A stretch of DNA of 64,000 nucleotides from Terriglobia bacterium. Lineage in GTDB: Bacteria > Acidobacteriota > Terriglobia > Terriglobales > Acidobacteriaceae. A program made the position numbers and the translations under genes. The notes below the pieces were generated by a model that worked only from the letters and a program-made list of their open reading frames with translations, had not been told where the DNA came from and made no database searches. Shown here one piece after another: positions 36,046-53,300 of the stretch (positions are counted from its first letter, which is position 1; each line of letters opens with the position of its first letter). The DNA lies in NCBI GenBank assembly GCA_020073165.1, contig JAIQFP010000004.1, positions 1-64,000 of the forward strand. The letters run 5' to 3'.

Positions 36046-36285
36046 AACACAGCATTCAGCATTCAGCACTCAGCACTCAGCACTCAGCCAAACCCATTCT
36101 CTGACGTCATCCTGAATCCGGCCTCGGCCGGATGAAGGACCTTGCGCGCATGAGCAGAACTGGTGGTGCACGCCAGATCCCTCGCCCGGCTGGAAGGAGC
36201 GCCGGGCTTCGGGATGACGCCAATATTTGTGCTTTGAAGCTGGCTGCGTGTTGGATGCGGAGTGCTGAGGGCTGACTGCTATCTT
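36046..36285. repeat. Composite: CAGCACT heptad arms around a REP-beta pair
   Basis: The left arm has CAGCATT and CAGCACT words. The right arm, GGAGTGCTGAGGGCTGACTG, reaches the TAG stop of the next gene. The loop holds a complete REP-beta pair from GACGTCATCCTGAATCCG to GGGATGACGCC. Two further composites of this plan lie near 45.8 and 47 kb. Confidence 0.75.
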
Positions 36286-38161: not shown

Positions 38162-38270
38162 GCGTCATCCCGAGCCGGCGTCAGCCGGTGAGGGACCTCG
38201 CGCGCAGTGCCACGATGCGGCGGTACGCGCAGATGCTTCACCGGCTGGAAGCTGGGTTCAGGATGACAGC
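38162..38270. repeat. REP-beta pair between M24 and AlkD-like genes
   Basis: It opens GGCGTCATCCCGAGCCGGCG with GAGGGACCTCGCGCGCA and closes with GGTTCAGGATGACAGC. On the minus strand its TCATCCTGA supplies the last codons and stop of the DNA alkylation repair gene. Confidence 0.7.
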
Positions 38271-40738: not shown

Positions 40739-40840
40739 GGCGTCATCCTGAGCGAAGCGAAGGACCTTGCGCGCATCGGCGTCACTGACTGCGCTCGGCA
40801 GGTCCTTCGGCGGGCTAACGCCCACCTCAGGATGACGTCA
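40739..40840. repeat. REP-beta pair (yggU-yggS spacer)
   Basis: The left unit is CGTCATCCTGAGCGAAGCG with AAGGACCTTGCGCGCA; the right unit is GGTCCTTCGGCGGGCTAAC and CTCAGGATGACGTC, inverted. The two arms can pair across about 40 bp. Confidence 0.8.
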
Positions 40841-47095: not shown

Positions 47096-49402
47096 ATGCG
47101 CCGTCTCCTACTCTTTCTCTTTACACTTTCTTACTTCGCTCCCCTCTTTGCCCAACCCAAGCACCCTTTCACCTTCGAAGACATGATGTCGCTCAAGCGG
47201 GTGGAGGAGCCGGTGCCTTCGCCCGATGGCAAGTGGGTGCTGTTCGCCGCGGTGGACGTGAATCTGGCAGCCAACACCAAAACGCCGCACATCTGGATCG
47301 TGCCGCTGGCGGGTGGGCAGGAGCGCGAAATCATTTCCGATCAGGATGCGGACCGGCCACGCTGGGCGCCGGATGGCAAGCGCTTTGCGTTCATCTCGAA
47401 TAAAGAAGGCGGATCGCAGATTTGGATTGCCGACTTTGACGGCACGGCCGGAGCCGTCACCGGCGTGCACAAGCTGACCTCCATCGCCACCGAAGCCGGA
47501 GGCGAGCTCTGGTCGCCCGATGGCAAGAACATCCTCTTTACCTCGGATGTCTATCCCGAGTGCACGGGCTCAGAAGCTGAAGCCTGCAACGCGAAGAAAC
47601 TGGACGAAGTTGCCAAGTCGAAGGTCAAGGCGCTGATCTTCGATCACCTGCTCTACCGCCACTGGAACGCCTACAAGAAGGGCATGCGTACGCACTTGCT
47701 CGTGGTTCCTGCCGACAACTGCGTAGGGACAGCCGCCTCGGCTGTCCCGCGAGGCGGAGCCGAGCAGTCTGATGGTGGCGCAAAAGAAAGTCGAGCTTCG
47801 CTCGACCGGACAGCCGGGGGCGGCTGTCCCTACGTGAGTCCTCGCGATCTCACGCCCGGCGACTACGACGCTCCCGTGTTCTCGCTCGGCGGACAGGACG
47901 ACTACGCCTTCTCGCCCGACGGCCAGGAGATTTGCTACACCTCGAACCACGACAAAGTTGAGGCCATTTCTACCAACAATGACTTGTGGATCGTCCCGGT
48001 CCACGTAGGGGCGGACGCCTCGTCCGCCCAGGTTTTGGCGCAGACCAGGAACATCACCGCCGACAATCCCGCCAGCGACTCGACGCCGCTCTATTCGCCC
48101 GATGGCAAGTACATCGCCTACCGCGCCCAGCAGCGTCCGGGATACGAGAGCGACCGCTTCCGGCTGATGCTGTATGACCGGAAGACGGGAGAGAAGAGGA
48201 ATCTGACGGAGAACTTCGATCACTGGGTTGGATCGTTTGGTTGGGCTGGGCCACACGAGATTGACCTAACTGCCGAAGATGAGGGTGAGTCTCCGATTTA
48301 CTACGTCGTCCCGGAAGCGTGCCCCGACGGCTGTTATCCAATCAAAGTCATGGATGGCTTCAACGACGACCTAGCCACCGGCGAGAACAGAATCGTCGGG
48401 GTTACGGCCAAGGCTATGTCAGAGCGGGTCGTCTTCAGCAGAATGTCGCTCGGAGCGCCCACGGAAATCTTTGTCGCTGAGCCCGGCACCTATTCAGTCG
48501 GCCTCGACAGGATCAGAGCGGCGCTCACAGGTGAATCCAAAGAGCCAATGCCGAACGATGCGATGGCGAGACCGCGCCAACTCACCCACCTCAACGATTC
48601 CGTCCTCTTCCAAGTCTCCATGTCCCCGCTCGAGTCCTTCTGGTTCCCCGGCGCCAACGTCGACAAGATCCAAGGCTTCCTCGTCAAGCCTCCCAACTTC
48701 GATCCCAGCAAGAAATATCCCGTAAAGTTCCTCATTCACGGTGGGCCGCAGGGGGCCTGGGGAGACGACTGGAGCTATCGCTGGAATCCCGAACTCTTCG
48801 CCGCCAACGGATACGTGGTCGTCATGATCAACTTCCACGGCTCGACCGGCTACGGGCAGAAGTTCATTGACGCCATCAACGGCGACTGGGGCGGCGCTCC
48901 CTTTGAAGACCTGATGAAGGGCCTCGACTACGCCGAGCAGCACTATCCGTTCATTGACAAAGCCCGCGAGTGCGCCCTCGGCGCCAGCTACGGCGGATAC
49001 ATGGCCGACTGGATTCTTGGGCATACTGACCGTTTCAAGTGCATCGTGTCGCACGATGGTCAGTTCAACACCACATCCACGTGGGGCACCACGGAAGAGC
49101 TCTGGTTCCAGGAATGGGAGCTCAAAGGCACGCCGTACACCAATCGCGCCATGTACGACAAATGGTCGCCGCACCTGAGCGCCGCAAACTTCAAGACGCC
49201 GACGCTGGTGGTCCACAGCCAGCTCGACTACCGGCTCGACGTGTCGGAAGGCTTCCAGCTCTTTACCACGTTGCAGCGGATGGGCGTGCCGTCGAAGATG
49301 CTCTACTTCCCCGACGAAGGCCACTGGGTACTCAAGCCCCAGAACTCACAGCTGTGGTGGAAAACGGTGAATGATTGGGTGGATGAGTGGGTGGGGAAGT
49401 AA
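47096..49402 (+). CDS. S9 family prolyl oligopeptidase-like peptidase
   Basis: The 768-aa protein joins a TolB-like beta-propeller to an S9 alpha/beta-hydrolase. A signal peptide (LLLFLFTLSYFAPLFAQ) suggests export. Catalytic residues: Ser631 in LGASYGGYMADW, Asp711 in SQLDYRLD and His743 in DEGHWVLK. FHGSTGYGQKFIDAINGDWG is the oxyanion region. Residues 210-246 are encoded by an inserted REP-alpha element of 111 bp, and residues 303-312 by a second short copy. Both are in frame and in propeller loops, so the enzyme may still fold. It would cleave short peptides. Confidence 0.92.
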   Translation: MRRLLLFLFTLSYFAPLFAQPKHPFTFEDMMSLKRVEEPVPSPDGKWVLFAAVDVNLAANTKTPHIWIVPLAGGQEREIISDQDADRPRWAPDGKRFAFISNKEGGSQIWIADFDGTAGAVTGVHKLTSIATEAGGELWSPDGKNILFTSDVYPECTGSEAEACNAKKLDEVAKSKVKALIFDHLLYRHWNAYKKGMRTHLLVVPADNCVGTAASAVPRGGAEQSDGGAKESRASLDRTAGGGCPYVSPRDLTPGDYDAPVFSLGGQDDYAFSPDGQEICYTSNHDKVEAISTNNDLWIVPVHVGADASSAQVLAQTRNITADNPASDSTPLYSPDGKYIAYRAQQRPGYESDRFRLMLYDRKTGEKRNLTENFDHWVGSFGWAGPHEIDLTAEDEGESPIYYVVPEACPDGCYPIKVMDGFNDDLATGENRIVGVTAKAMSERVVFSRMSLGAPTEIFVAEPGTYSVGLDRIRAALTGESKEPMPNDAMARPRQLTHLNDSVLFQVSMSPLESFWFPGANVDKIQGFLVKPPNFDPSKKYPVKFLIHGGPQGAWGDDWSYRWNPELFAANGYVVVMINFHGSTGYGQKFIDAINGDWGGAPFEDLMKGLDYAEQHYPFIDKARECALGASYGGYMADWILGHTDRFKCIVSHDGQFNTTSTWGTTEELWFQEWELKGTPYTNRAMYDKWSPHLSAANFKTPTLVVHSQLDYRLDVSEGFQLFTTLQRMGVPSKMLYFPDEGHWVLKPQNSQLWWKTVNDWVDEWVGK
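47723..47833. mobile_element. MITE/BIME-like element with REP-alpha ends, inside the S9 gene
   Basis: A 111-bp segment has perfect 15-bp inverted ends (GTAGGGACAGCCGCC). Each end forms a palindrome (GGACAGCCGCCTCGGCTGTCC-like), and the middle has a TCGAGC/GCTCGA hairpin. It has no stop in the gene's frame and is a multiple of three, adding 37 codons. No transposase lies nearby. Target duplication is not evident. Confidence 0.75.
48002..48031. repeat. REP-alpha copy, short form, inside the S9 gene
   Basis: CACGTAGGGGCGGACGCC followed by TCGTCCGCCCAG is a single palindrome of the REP-alpha type. It is in frame and encodes HVGADASSAQ in a propeller loop. Confidence 0.65.
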
Positions 49403-49414
49403 TCGTTTTTCGGT

Positions 49415-49784
49415 GACGTCATCCTGAGCGGCGTGCCGCGAAGGACCTCGCGCGGAGCGGCAAGGGATTGTGGGTGGTCACGGGCTGTGCCGACGCTGAA
49501 CTCTGTGCCGCTGCCCGCCGGATCCCTCGCCCGGCTGGAGAAAGCGCCGGGCTTCGGGATGACGTCGGGGGAAAAGGGGACCGGCACCGGGAAAGGTGGA
49601 GCGGGCTAATGCCATCACCCACCATGACGGCGTCATCCTGAGCGGCGTGCCGCGAAGGACCCAGCGCGGGGCGGCAAGGGATTGTGAGTGGTCACGGGCT
49701 GTGCCGACGCTGAACTCTGTGTCGCTGCCCGCCGGATCCCTCGCCCGGCTGGAGAAAGCGCCGGGCTTCGGGATGACGTCGGGG
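49415..49784. repeat. Two tandem 154-bp REP-beta copies (49417-49570, 49631-49784)
   Basis: Both copies start CGTCATCCTGAGCGGCG and end GGGATGACGTCGGGG, each 154 bp, with about five differences and a period of 214 bp. Each contains a left REP-beta unit, a middle part with CACGGGCTGTGCCGACGCTG, and an inverted right unit. A third partial copy begins at 49816 and lies inside the nuclease gene. The 420-bp gap 49403-49822 contains no other feature. Confidence 0.8.
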
Positions 49785-49815
49785 AGAGGGAGTGGCCACT
49801 GCCATCACCCTTTAT

Positions 49816-50250
49816 GATGGCGTCATCCTGAGCGGCCGTTCAGGCCGCGAAGGGCCTGGCGCGCAGTACCCACAACGCCGGGGTCGGGCTTGTACACGTC
49901 TTGCCATTCCGCTGCCAGGTCGTACCAGTGGGGATTCATGCTCTCGATCAATGAGATCTTCTTGCTGCGACGCCAGCCTTTGACCTCCTTCTCGCGTGCG
50001 ATCGCCATGTCCGGGTAGTAAGACATTTCGTAGTACACGAGTCGCGTGACGTTGTAATCGCTGGTGAACCCTGGGATCATTTTGTGTTTGTGCTGGAACA
50101 CTCGCCGGGACAGGTTGCCGGTCACGACGGTATAGAGCACGTGGTGCCGCGAATTGCTGGCCATGATGTAGACGTAGAAGTGCTTGGGCTTCCGCATAGT
50201 GCATTGCCACTGCGCGCCGGGTCCTTCGCTTCGCTCAGGATGACGCCATC
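49816..50250. mobile_element. REP-beta-bounded GIY-YIG unit (candidate)
   Basis: The left boundary (49816-49867) reads GATGGCGTCATCCTGAGCG, then an extra GGCCGTTCAGGCC palindrome, then GGCGCGCAGT. The right boundary (50209-50250) is its inverted counterpart: ACTGCGCGCC, then CGCTCAGGATGACGCCATC. The outer 19 bp and inner 10 bp are identical. The nuclease gene fills the space. Mobility is inference. Confidence 0.55.
49823..50197 (-). CDS. GIY-YIG nuclease family protein
   Basis: A 124-aa single-domain protein with the GIY-YIG fold: FYVYIMASNSRHHVLYTVVT, then LSRRVFQHKH with the catalytic-type Arg, and the C-terminal REKEVKGWRRSKK and LIESMNPHW. The small GIY-YIG family normally has YIG/YTG; here Y22-T23-V24 replaces it, so activity is doubtful. 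The last 15 residues (from GTARQALRG) and the TGA stop are translated from a REP-beta repeat, and the start lies 12 bp inside the inverted copy. Similar small nucleases are not tied to a known pathway. Confidence 0.85.
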   Translation of the reverse strand: MRKPKHFYVYIMASNSRHHVLYTVVTGNLSRRVFQHKHKMIPGFTSDYNVTRLVYYEMSYYPDMAIAREKEVKGWRRSKKISLIESMNPHWYDLAAEWQDVYKPDPGVVGTARQALRGLNGRSG

Positions 50251-50311
50251 AAACCCACCCCGGGCTTACGCGCGGGGCTCTATTCTGTCGCCGCTCCGCG
50301 GCTGAATCGCT

Positions 50312-53300
50312 CTACTGCGTCCCTCTCCACGGCGCAGGGGTGTGTCCTTTAGGGGGATTTCCCCCAATCGGGGTGTCGCTGTCTCCCATCGGCGAGAGCG
50401 ATTCCAGCGTAAACGACAGCGTGCCGCTGCCGGCGGTGGCAGTGCCTGCAATCTCGGTTGTGCCCTGGACACCGCCCGTGGAAGGCGTGATGCTCACCAG
50501 GCCGTCCACATCGGACTGCACCGTGGTCTGCGACGACGACACAATCACCGGAGTCGGATTGCGGATGATGATGATGTCACCATCGCCCCGCGGGGCCGGG
50601 CAGACGCCCAGCAGCCGGGACACCACTTGCTGGAAAACCACATCGGCGCCGCGCACCGGATTGGGCGGAGTGGAGGAATCGGTCACGCGCATGGTGACTA
50701 GCTTGAAATTCTGATCCTCAGAGATTGCTTGGACGCTCCCGGCCACGGGTTGCAGCTTGAGCGCAGCCGTTGCCACTGAGCTTACGTAGAAGGTCTGGCA
50801 GGGATTGTCTCCCGGCTCCACACAGGTGCTGACCCACACATCTGCGCTCATGTTCGAGAGGTGCAGGGTGTTGTTGGAGTCTCCGCTGGCGTTGGTAGTA
50901 GTTGTGGTGAACGTGAGCGTGCCCGATCCCTTCACCACCTGGTAGTTGACAGTACGCCCCACCACGGGCGAGCCGAACGACAGCACGCGCGCGGTGAGGG
51001 GCACATCGAGAGAGGCTCCTTGGGCGATCCAGACGTACGGCGAAGTCAGGGCGATGTCGAGCGCTGACGACGTGCCTTGCAGCCCCGTCTGCACGATTTT
51101 GGGCGGATTGTACGAGGCCGGCGCCAGCGCCGCGGTAATGGTCATGGTGCCGGCGGTGAGCACCGTCACGCGGGTGGAGACCTGTCCACTTTCATCCGTG
51201 AGCAGGGTGCAACTGGAGGCCCCGGCGCACGCCCCCAGCGCCGCCACGGGGGCAACGCTGAAGAAAATGCTCGCCCCGGCGACCGGCGTTGAGCCATCAG
51301 CCGCATAGGCACCTACACGGATGGGGTTGGCGGCCACCGCTCCTACCGGCGTGGCGGGATTCGATCCTGCGATCAAGCCGATGCCGTCGTTGGGGCCTGC
51401 GCCATAGGTGAGGACATCGGTCATGCTGGAAGCGGAACCGGTGGCTGGATCGCTGAGAGTGATGGCCTGGAGGCCGTCCGCCAATGGGGGCGCGCTCATG
51501 ATCACGTGGTTCGGCGATACCGCCAGCACAGCTGCGTTGGTCGTTGCCACGGCCGCCGTGGTCCCCGGCCCAAAGCCGAAACCGTTCACGGTCAGAGGCG
51601 TTCCGCCGCTGACGCTGGCCCGCGCCGGGGTCACCGAATCACCGTAGAAAAGCCGCACGTGATAGCGGAGGTCGGGGCGGCCGTCGCCGCGATAGTCGGC
51701 CACGCCGATACGGAAGTCGCCAGCGCCGAACAAGGCCGCGTCCAGGCGGGTCATCCCGAAATTGAGCGTGTTGAATGCCATGGGCGTGGCTGCCGGAGGC
51801 AGAGTCCCGGGGGGATCGGGCAGCGCCCAGATGCCGATGACGGGGAGAGCTTTGGTTTGCGACGCGGCGCTGGTTTCGTCCATCGCGGTCACCTCTACCG
51901 AGAGGGTGCGCTTGTCCTGCCCGGAGAACCGGAAGTAGTCGGTATTGCCATAACCGCTGATCGTTCCCATCCAATCTCCGGAAGGAGGTACGGGCGCGGG
52001 GTTGGAGTAGTCTTCCGAGCCGTAGGAATCCTGCGTTTGAACTGCACTGCCTTGCATCAGGATGTCCTGCTGGGCGTCCCCTCCTTTGCTTACCGTCACA
52101 GTGATCGGCTGCGCCGCGCCCGAAGGCTGCACCTGCCAGGGGCCGTAGGGTCCCACGGCCTGCGACCAAAGCGGATCCAGGGTTTCAACGCTGAGTTGGT
52201 ATTGTGCGCTCTCAGCGCCGTTGGGAATTTCCAGTCCAGCCAGATCAAACCAGCCTTCGAGCGAGGAATCATCGGAGCCGAAGCGGTCATAGTTCTGTCC
52301 CGTGCTGTCGGTCGAACCGTTCACGGGATTGCCCGCGTAGCCACGAAACAGAAAGCCGGAAACAGAAGTCGCCACCGAACTGCGCGAAGCCTTGCCGCTG
52401 GTGGGATCGATCCAGCGCGCCACCACGTTGACGCCTTGCATCCCCTGAGCAGCCAACCCGTCGGCATCTGCGAAATGCACTGCGCCATGAATGCGGATAG
52501 TGTTTTCAGAGAAAAGCTGCTTGCCAGGGAAATTGTCCTGATTCTCGGGGGTCACAGGGTACAAACGAGAAAATGCCGCACGATCATCCATCTTGGGCTG
52601 GTCCGCGTTGGCATAGCAGGCCGAGATGGGCACGCAGGTGTCGGGGTCAGTGGCATGCATGATGGTGAAGCCGGTGTAGTCGTCGGCTGTGGGCGCCGGC
52701 TGGCGGGTGATGACGTTCAGGTTAGCCTGCGACCAGTCGAGGCCGAGCACACGCCCGAGTACCCGCACCAGGCGGTACTTCACGTCGGGCAATTGGCCAG
52801 CACCCTGGACGCAGTTTCCATTCATGATGATCAGGGCATGGACAATGTGAGCGTCGGTGCTGAGGTTGTCGGGTCCACCGAAAACGGCATTGGTGAAGCA
52901 GTAGTCGGCCCCACCCGCACCCAGGCCCAGCAGCGCGTCGGTGACCTGCCCGTCGGCGTCGTAAACAATAGCCACCGGCTTGGTCACAGCGCTGGGCAGG
53001 ATGTCGGACGGCATGGTGATAGTGCCGTCCGGGTTTGCGACCACATTGGCGCCACTGACGTCTTCGCTGAGCTGCCCCGCCAACGTGGACGACACCGCAG
53101 CAGTGGAGATGGAAGTCCAGCGGCTGAAAGCGTCGGCGACGAAGTCGTTGGCGCCGGCTTGCGGCAGCAGGGGGCTGAGGTCTCCCTGGTCGGTGTAGTA
53201 ATTGACCGCGCCTTGCGCCCAGGTCAAGGGCGCGCCTTTGGTCCCCGAGTCGAAGTAGCTGCTTCCCGCAATGTAACGGGGGCCGCCCGCGTGCAGGAGT

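Follow-up and report, generated by a model that had tools for sequence, protein, structure and literature searches.

A stand-alone GIY-YIG endonuclease gene bounded by inverted REPs of the CGTC/TGTC superfamily was found in the genome of a Terriglobia bacterium, and it seems probable that the whole unit is a small mobile element whose nuclease recognises and nicks its cognate REP. A single GIY-YIG subfamily lies specifically between REPs that face outward, under 19 phylum labels. The arms within a unit tend to share their type, and certain copies found at unrelated sites resemble each other from one REP tip to the other and no further. One orthologous site occurs in filled, empty-pair and bare form, and the RAYT-like genes of the same genome have other ends. 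We infer that the nuclease is the mover of the repeats. The first-pass annotation had raised the possibility of a REP/nuclease mobile unit at this place, which the survey of homologous loci reported below supports.

The unit, its protein and the gene-less repeat pairs

The window, by which we mean the whole 64,000-nt stretch of contig JAIQFP010000004.1 that was analysed, contains one such unit and several gene-less repeat pairs (Table 1). The outer arms, given in the first-pass annotation as identical inverted ends of 19 bp, match perfectly over 20 nt, and the inner GGCGCGCAGT reported there as identical and inverted lies within a second inverted block of 21 nt and 90% identity (49847-49867 and 50209-50229). 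As also claimed, the gene ends in a repeat, the GATGAC tip of the left arm being the source of its stop codon; its ATG lies 11 nt inside the inner block, and not 12 nt as had been given. Further mechanical open reading frames overlap the unit, which we take to be noise. Rfam detected no family at the repeats when applied to 49300-50800, its sole match being an adjoining Acido-Lenti-1 RNA (RF01687, E = 1.3e-7; 50258-50303, plus strand) that begins 7 nt outside the right outer arm. Acido-Lenti-1 is a described candidate RNA of unknown role.

Table 1. Positions in the window of the nuclease unit, its parts and the empty REP pairs.
Feature	Position	Strand	Remarks
Whole unit, REP - GIY-YIG gene - inverted REP	49822..50244		423 nt, outer GTCAT tip to outer ATGAC tip
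Left outer arm, TGATGGC + GTCATCCTGAGCG	49815..49834	+	perfect inverted match to 50232-50251
Left REP hairpin, GTCAT-CCT-GA-(GCGGCC..GGCCGC)-GA-AGG-GCC	49822..49856	+	from sequence reading and fold
GIY-YIG nuclease gene	49823..50197	-	124 aa; YIG glycine is valine; stop from left REP tip
Right REP hairpin, GTCATCCTGAGCGAAGCGAAGGACC	50220..50244	-	from repeat pattern searches
Right outer arm	50232..50251	-	perfect inverted match to 49815-49834
Empty REP pair, tandem duplication copy 1	49418..49563		146 nt
Empty REP pair, tandem duplication copy 2	49632..49777		146 nt
Empty REP pair	40742..40836		95 nt
Empty REP pair	38164..38267		104 nt; right arm recognised by tip alone
Empty REP pair	36106..36218		113 nt

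The window protein matches the Pfam GIY-YIG model (E = 2e-8, 34.9 bits against a cut-off of 22.6) and no other Pfam domain, and no NCBIfam model matches it. Residues Y10, Y22, R32, H36, E69 and N88 are invariant over a 46-row family alignment, composed of 42 of 80 fetched relatives and the four proteins of the source genome, from which many similar rows, and those whose tblastn range contains a stop, were omitted. The window copy keeps all 12 columns that are invariant in this alignment, and the sole nearly invariant change noted is G24, which is valine as the earlier reading had it; the 84% identical L028 copy, which occupies this site in a different Terriglobia genome, has the YIG glycine. 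On this sequence evidence we would call the window nuclease possibly impaired and not dead: the change is real, and it does not prove the decay that had been suggested from it. AlphaFold2 predicted a confident domain (mean pLDDT 82) with a poor stretch at residues 104-124. The nearest solved fold found by Foldseek was the UPF0213 protein BH0048 (1zg2, E = 5.5e-4, the sole match below 0.001), followed by Slx1, a nuclease for branched DNA, and a profile search of PDB sequences agreed. Neither Pfam on the window protein nor a model search of the 46 members detected a known transposase. A defence system was considered and rejected, as PADLOC returned weak matches to three models, with 4 member-hits in total among the 46 members.

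Five GIY-YIG matches occur in the source genome (35 contigs, 4.6 Mb): four are small proteins, and the fifth lies in a 614-aa frame that we take to be UvrC. A search for further genes with such ends, proposed at the outset, found all four small genes bracketed by inverted TCATCC(T/C)GAGCG-type repeats, the right arm at L002 being degenerate; the 614-aa gene has no such repeat within 1.5 kb, with up to two mismatches allowed. The four small proteins are 51-64% identical over the domain, and the repeat variant differs for each. One of the units sits between putative E1 alpha and E1 beta genes, presumably of a dehydrogenase. At another (L003, 544-1725, minus strand) the GIY-YIG frame has no stop and crosses the 3' repeat into a gene that we take to encode an enoyl-CoA hydratase, giving a 393-aa open frame.

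Five empty outward pairs and two single hairpins (45860 and 46955) occur in the window, and four more pattern matches (7704, 51750, 51814 and 61034) look like chance. The tandem duplication said to adjoin the unit is real, consisting of two 154-nt copies, 97% identical and 214 nt apart, each with an empty hairpin pair. Empty pairs are thus present as claimed, at an abundance that is modest; a strict repeat pattern found 28 sites in the 4.6-Mb genome, and the reversed control pattern none. Among 297 genomes of the phylum a rigid form of the repeat occurred in 20/32 genomes with the nuclease versus 18/265 others (p = 6e-13, the genomes being related). With this one rigid form counted, repeat number within the family was not significantly higher where the nuclease is present (p = 0.11), and we rejected nuclease presence as a predictor of repeat number there; outside the family the co-occurrence of nuclease and repeat was not significant (p = 0.09).

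One nuclease subfamily between outward-facing hairpins

Relatives were collected with a four-protein profile from one genome per species, without consulting the repeats, and the best 80 of 231 were kept, 75 of which carry 23 phylum labels and 5 none. Hairpins were sought within 250 bp on each side by a structural pattern: GTCAT and a triplet, then a stretch of six letters or more, the complement of the triplet, an A, a T or C, and a C. This pattern misses variant tips (L273, L275 and L281) and also the window's own left arm, because its tail reads GGGCC and not GGACC. After five of 84 loci with a flank under 150 nt had been dropped (L033, L048, L055, L061 and L080), 79 remained, comprising 75 of the best 80 relatives and the four loci of the source genome. 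A hairpin was present at 76 of these, and outward hairpins on both sides at 54; displaced control windows at the same loci had any hairpin in 59/1031 and both-sided hairpins in 0/1031. For the 75 relatives without the source genome the counts were 72 and 51, with some hairpin in all 21 remaining phylum labels and both-sided units in 19. The pattern found no hairpin at L043, L075 and L085.

Searching the 297 genomes of the Acidobacteriota with the 46-row profile gave a clean split between strong places (at least 96 bits; 47 outside the source genome) and weak ones (at most 69 bits), with L203-L205 counted as neither, L204 and L205 being partial matches (67 bits) and L203 a match in pieces. Hairpins accompanied 38 of the 47 strong places, on both sides in 22 (controls 14/180 and 1/180), and nine had none by the structural pattern. 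Other GIY-YIG subfamilies of the phylum are not REP-flanked: among 20 loci, chosen by hand down the list of weaker rows and taken to represent them, one had any hairpin and none had both (own controls 5/70 and 0/70). The association therefore belongs to one GIY-YIG subfamily. It is real, as first supposed, and is general for that subfamily, not local to the repeat of the source genome. Homologues without repeats, or repeats at unrelated distances from the gene, had been named as evidence against a unit. This test did not refute it: in 78 two-sided units the hairpins are close to the gene, one preceding the conserved domain at a median of 42.5 nt and one following it at 33.5 nt. Plain alignment of the flanks of 78 loci gave a score of at least 16 in inverted orientation at 35 and in direct orientation at 45 (displaced windows, inverted only, 2/647), and was replaced by the structural pattern because several loci have arrays on both sides. 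Tandem arrays of GTCAT half-repeats that lack the 3' half of the hairpin adjoin some units (L276, L090 and L104).

A tree of 80 of these short proteins left 47 of 77 inner branches open. Phylum labels change 42 times on it, the least possible being 22 and the mean of shuffled labels 52.6 (as low in 0/200); the labels are therefore partly clustered and partly scattered, which does not by itself prove transfer.

The repeat consists of a GTC tip, then AT, then a variable stem. At sites of the rigid pattern, which makes no demand for pairing, stems of six types were complementary in 52/53 cases (maximum of 2000 shuffles, 29), and the stem is maintained by compensatory change. The stem triplet is common to both arms in 71% of the 78 units, compared with 20% when shuffled, a value reached in 0/2000 shuffles. 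Of 169 ends, 120 have T and 40 have C immediately before GTCAT. The AT at the start of the stem is demanded by the structural pattern itself; Novosphingobium aromaticivorans has GC there, and the tip in Sinorhizobium meliloti reads CCTC. Most hairpins combine a short outer stem with an inner stem of variable length and end in ATCT or ACCT. In 182/248 outward hairpins the two stems are separated by GA on each side, which could form tandem G-A pairs. A stem of 8-9 bp with a loop of 4-5 nt and a CCA tail is present in L272 and, by reading, in L280. Single-strand DNA folds gave z scores of -0.5, -1.2, +0.7 and 0.0 for four repeats of the kind in the window and -4.0 for the Azospirillum lipoferum REP, so folding energy alone fails to mark the short ones.

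Outside GTCAT the two ends agree in inverted orientation for four more letters (83 units; z = 7.8, 5.5, 3.5 and 2.6), with no consistent excess past these four. The longest such agreements are 13 letters in L151 and 11 in L098, with no direct duplication. These four letters may belong to the end itself or may have been left by the insertion reaction. Among 85 units no target-site duplication stood out clearly: offset-0 matches were in slight excess only, numbering 5 versus 1.9 for two letters and 3 versus 1.2 for three, with one 8-letter match at offset 2.

Copies, empty sites and a possible route of movement

Two units of one genome (G195; L190 and L192) have proteins 93% identical and unrelated surroundings, and their DNA is alike over 1368-1853, with REP tips at 1370 and 1846, the similarity starting 2 nt ahead of one GTCAT tip and stopping 7 nt past the other. 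Older same-genome copies in G139 (L142/L188 and L187/L188) and G179 (L145/L191) are likewise alike from tip to tip within 1 to 7 nt, and for L149/L151, from two genomes, the similarity ends within 2 nt of the REP tips. The pairs L142/L187 and L154/L193 are alike over the gene only, and the similarity of L161/L195 reaches one tip only. Five further pairs share flanks and therefore probably represent one old insertion each. The full unit has few copies. Among the 31 protein pairs from single genomes, identity is only 41-65% in 26 and reaches 75% or more in 5, which indicates that the full unit moves rarely.

Empty sites in orthologous spacers, which the first-pass annotation had suggested looking for, were found in two settings. 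At the second of the two G195 sites just described the unit is present, and the 85% identical DNA of G036 has a 140-nt gene-less hairpin pair with the same outer tips; in L286-L290, five more relatives, the structural pattern detected no hairpin there. The difference between G195 and G036 could be either gene loss in G036 or gain in G195. The spacer between E1 alpha and E1 beta measures 555 bp with the unit in the source genome and 61 bp without it in a species of the same genus. Among 24 family loci with both genes, a GIY-YIG match was present in two, the source genome and G347, where the copy looks decayed, and absent from 22; a unit also occupies this site in another Terriglobia genome (L068). 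The window unit is found at the same place in G339 (83%), of the same genus, and at L028 (84%). At three family loci (L245, L246 and L263), 79 to 90 bp separate the same upstream gene from a downstream relative that is only 34-41% identical.

With insertion sequences and MITEs the unit shares terminal inverted repeats, one gene, gene-less derivatives and insertion between operon genes; unlike them it has neither a known transposase nor a clear target-site duplication. By analogy with RAYTs and with structure-specific GIY-YIG nucleases, the nuclease would recognise the hairpin of its cognate REP, either in an extruded cruciform or on an exposed single strand, and would nick or cut near the GTCA tip. 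Host replication and repair might then place copies at new sites, sometimes of the full unit but more often of a REP pair without the gene. The empty pairs would be the non-autonomous relatives of the unit, a relation like that of REPINs to RAYTs. Since GIY-YIG enzymes cleave DNA by hydrolysis and do not join it, joining must come from the host, and movement may be homing-like, by break and copy, and not classical transposition.

The gene might instead be an ordinary intergenic GIY-YIG homing gene, copied by break repair into existing REPs that spread by other means. The site with the gene in G195 and an empty pair with the same outer tips in G036 fits such copying, and 12/46 members weakly match a group I intron endonuclease model (best E = 1e-5). 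The catalytic domain of the unit protein is indeed that of GIY-YIG homing endonucleases, a kind that includes I-TevI, and of small UPF0213 GIY-YIG proteins; unlike homing endonucleases, the unit was not seen in an intron and its ends are REP hairpins. REP and gene can travel together, however, since the surroundings of some complete units, both REPs included, are unrelated and the G195 place lacks a REP in five relatives. The arms within a unit also tend to match. We therefore regard a homing gene in pre-existing REPs as unlikely and prefer a unit that moves with its REPs.

RAYTs, the CGTC superfamily and the source of the repeats

The arrangement resembles the RAYT/REPtron system with its REPINs, in which a single small gene also lies between inverted REP hairpins, gene copies are few, gene-less REP pairs occur elsewhere and one REP end has an unpaired tip. 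It differs in its enzyme, which is an HUH-tyrosine nuclease related to IS200/IS605 in RAYTs and an unrelated GIY-YIG domain here, and in the tip, which is GTAG in RAYT REPs and CGTC or TGTC here. The window protein has no Y1_Tnp domain (HUH motif, catalytic tyrosine), Pfam finding GIY-YIG only; the tips in our set read GTCAT, preceded mostly by T or C, in place of GTAG.

In the passages of Di Nocera (2013; PMC3733652) used here, most bacterial REPs are GTAG-tagged, and served by RAYTs, or CGTC-tagged (also TGTC and CCTC); the CGTC-tagged REPs "apparently lack a dedicated transposase", and the superfamily is listed in 5 phyla. As far as those passages describe the superfamily, which includes dRS3 of Neisseria and RPE-4/RPE-6 of Rickettsia, our repeats share the CGTC, TGTC or CCTC tip, the paired inverted arrangement and, in most, the first stem letters AT, and a CCA-like tail is common to the Azospirillum, Rhizobium, Shinella and Aeromonas copies; they fit within it. 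They differ from that description in the GA on each side between outer and inner stem in most hairpins, and in a GIY-YIG gene within the pair, both-sided under 19 phylum labels.

The same passages name CGTC repeats for A. lipoferum, S. meliloti, Neisseria and N. aromaticivorans, among others. A protein search with a Hyphomicrobiales member found the nuclease in 33 plasmid records, including species and genera so named, and in the 12 of these that were fetched, outward both-sided hairpins lay within 350 bp of the gene in 7 by the structural pattern and in 10 with the variant-tip hairpins of L273, L275 and L281 included; L279 has hairpins on one side only and L282 none. Plasmid control windows had any hairpin in 5/24 and both in 1/24, a background above that of the other sets. 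A second repeat pattern, which misfits the short Neisseria and Azospirillum loops, found sites in 3/7 records. In A. lipoferum CGTCATCCCCGCGAAGGCGGGGATCCA stands on both sides of the nuclease gene, the N. gonorrhoeae nuclease is flanked by dRS3-like repeats found by the structural pattern, and in N. aromaticivorans and S. meliloti it lies between variant-tip inverted hairpins. Thus in each of the four species or genera checked, from the longer list that Di Nocera names, the nuclease stands between such repeats. The A. lipoferum unit (L272, 1495-1788) has a conserved neighbourhood, between sufB and sufC, and a unit on a Planktothrix plasmid (L276, 1498-1782) lies between a type IIL MmeI-like enzyme and DISARM drmA.

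These loci also bear on whether the nuclease gene is a passenger, the cargo of a REP element moved by another enzyme, be it a RAYT, a TIRYT or another transposase. To our knowledge GIY-YIG chemistry alone does not join DNA, the repeats persist in genomes without the nuclease, and the source genome does have RAYT-like genes, with 6 Y1_Tnp matches (L266-L271), all away from the window unit. None of the six has a GTCAT hairpin within 600 bp, however, and we rejected a RAYT of this genome as the mover of the GTCAT repeats; near five of the six stands a strong inverted repeat of a different kind, which at three loci is GGGGACAG-like. Across the nuclease loci, which are not a genome-wide survey of REP pairs, the pairs hold one gene subfamily and not assorted cargo, and Di Nocera (2013; PMC3733652), in the part used here, found no tyrosine transposase gene flanked by CGTC repeats. 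We consider such a passenger improbable. The GGGGACAG-type repeats at the three RAYT-like loci resemble the motif GGGGWSAS given for TIRYTs in the same part of that paper (PMC3733652).

That the hairpins serve only as transcription signals for a chromosomal nuclease gene, or that the host uses REPs to control this gene, deserves hardly any credence: the hairpins are indeed near both ends of the gene, and REPs are credited with roles in termination and mRNA stability (PMC3733652, in the passages used), but this leaves their outward inverted orientation, the matching arms, the tip-ended similarity, the empty pairs and the empty sites unexplained.

The first-pass annotation knew of no GIY-YIG protein in a RAYT-like place, and among the matches listed in the open PMC literature (subscription journals and bioRxiv lie outside this scope) no paper joins GIY-YIG genes with REPs, and none pairs GIY-YIG with dRS3. 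Of later REP papers, the text available for PMC12306157 does not contain "RAYT", "nuclease" or "transposase", and that for PMC6006769 does not contain "GIY". On balance we favour the view that the nuclease units form a new class of element without a known transposase, in which a GIY-YIG nuclease about 100 residues long would recognise hairpin REPs and, together with the replication and repair of the host, would spread both its own unit and gene-less REPs. The CGTC/TGTC superfamily would then have its dedicated enzyme in about 20 or more phyla, a second, independent invention of the RAYT role. Such a nuclease would also be very small, and the site that it recognises would be structured. We know of no bacterial transposon that uses the GIY-YIG catalytic class, which would be an addition. 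GTCAT-tipped hairpins are widespread short bacterial repeats for whose source the passages of Di Nocera (2013; PMC3733652) used here had no answer. A specific nuclease in this place makes that source testable and ties the dRS3-type repeats to an enzyme family, and the occurrence of the same package under about twenty phyla suggests that it is the missing enzyme behind a very widespread family of short repeats.
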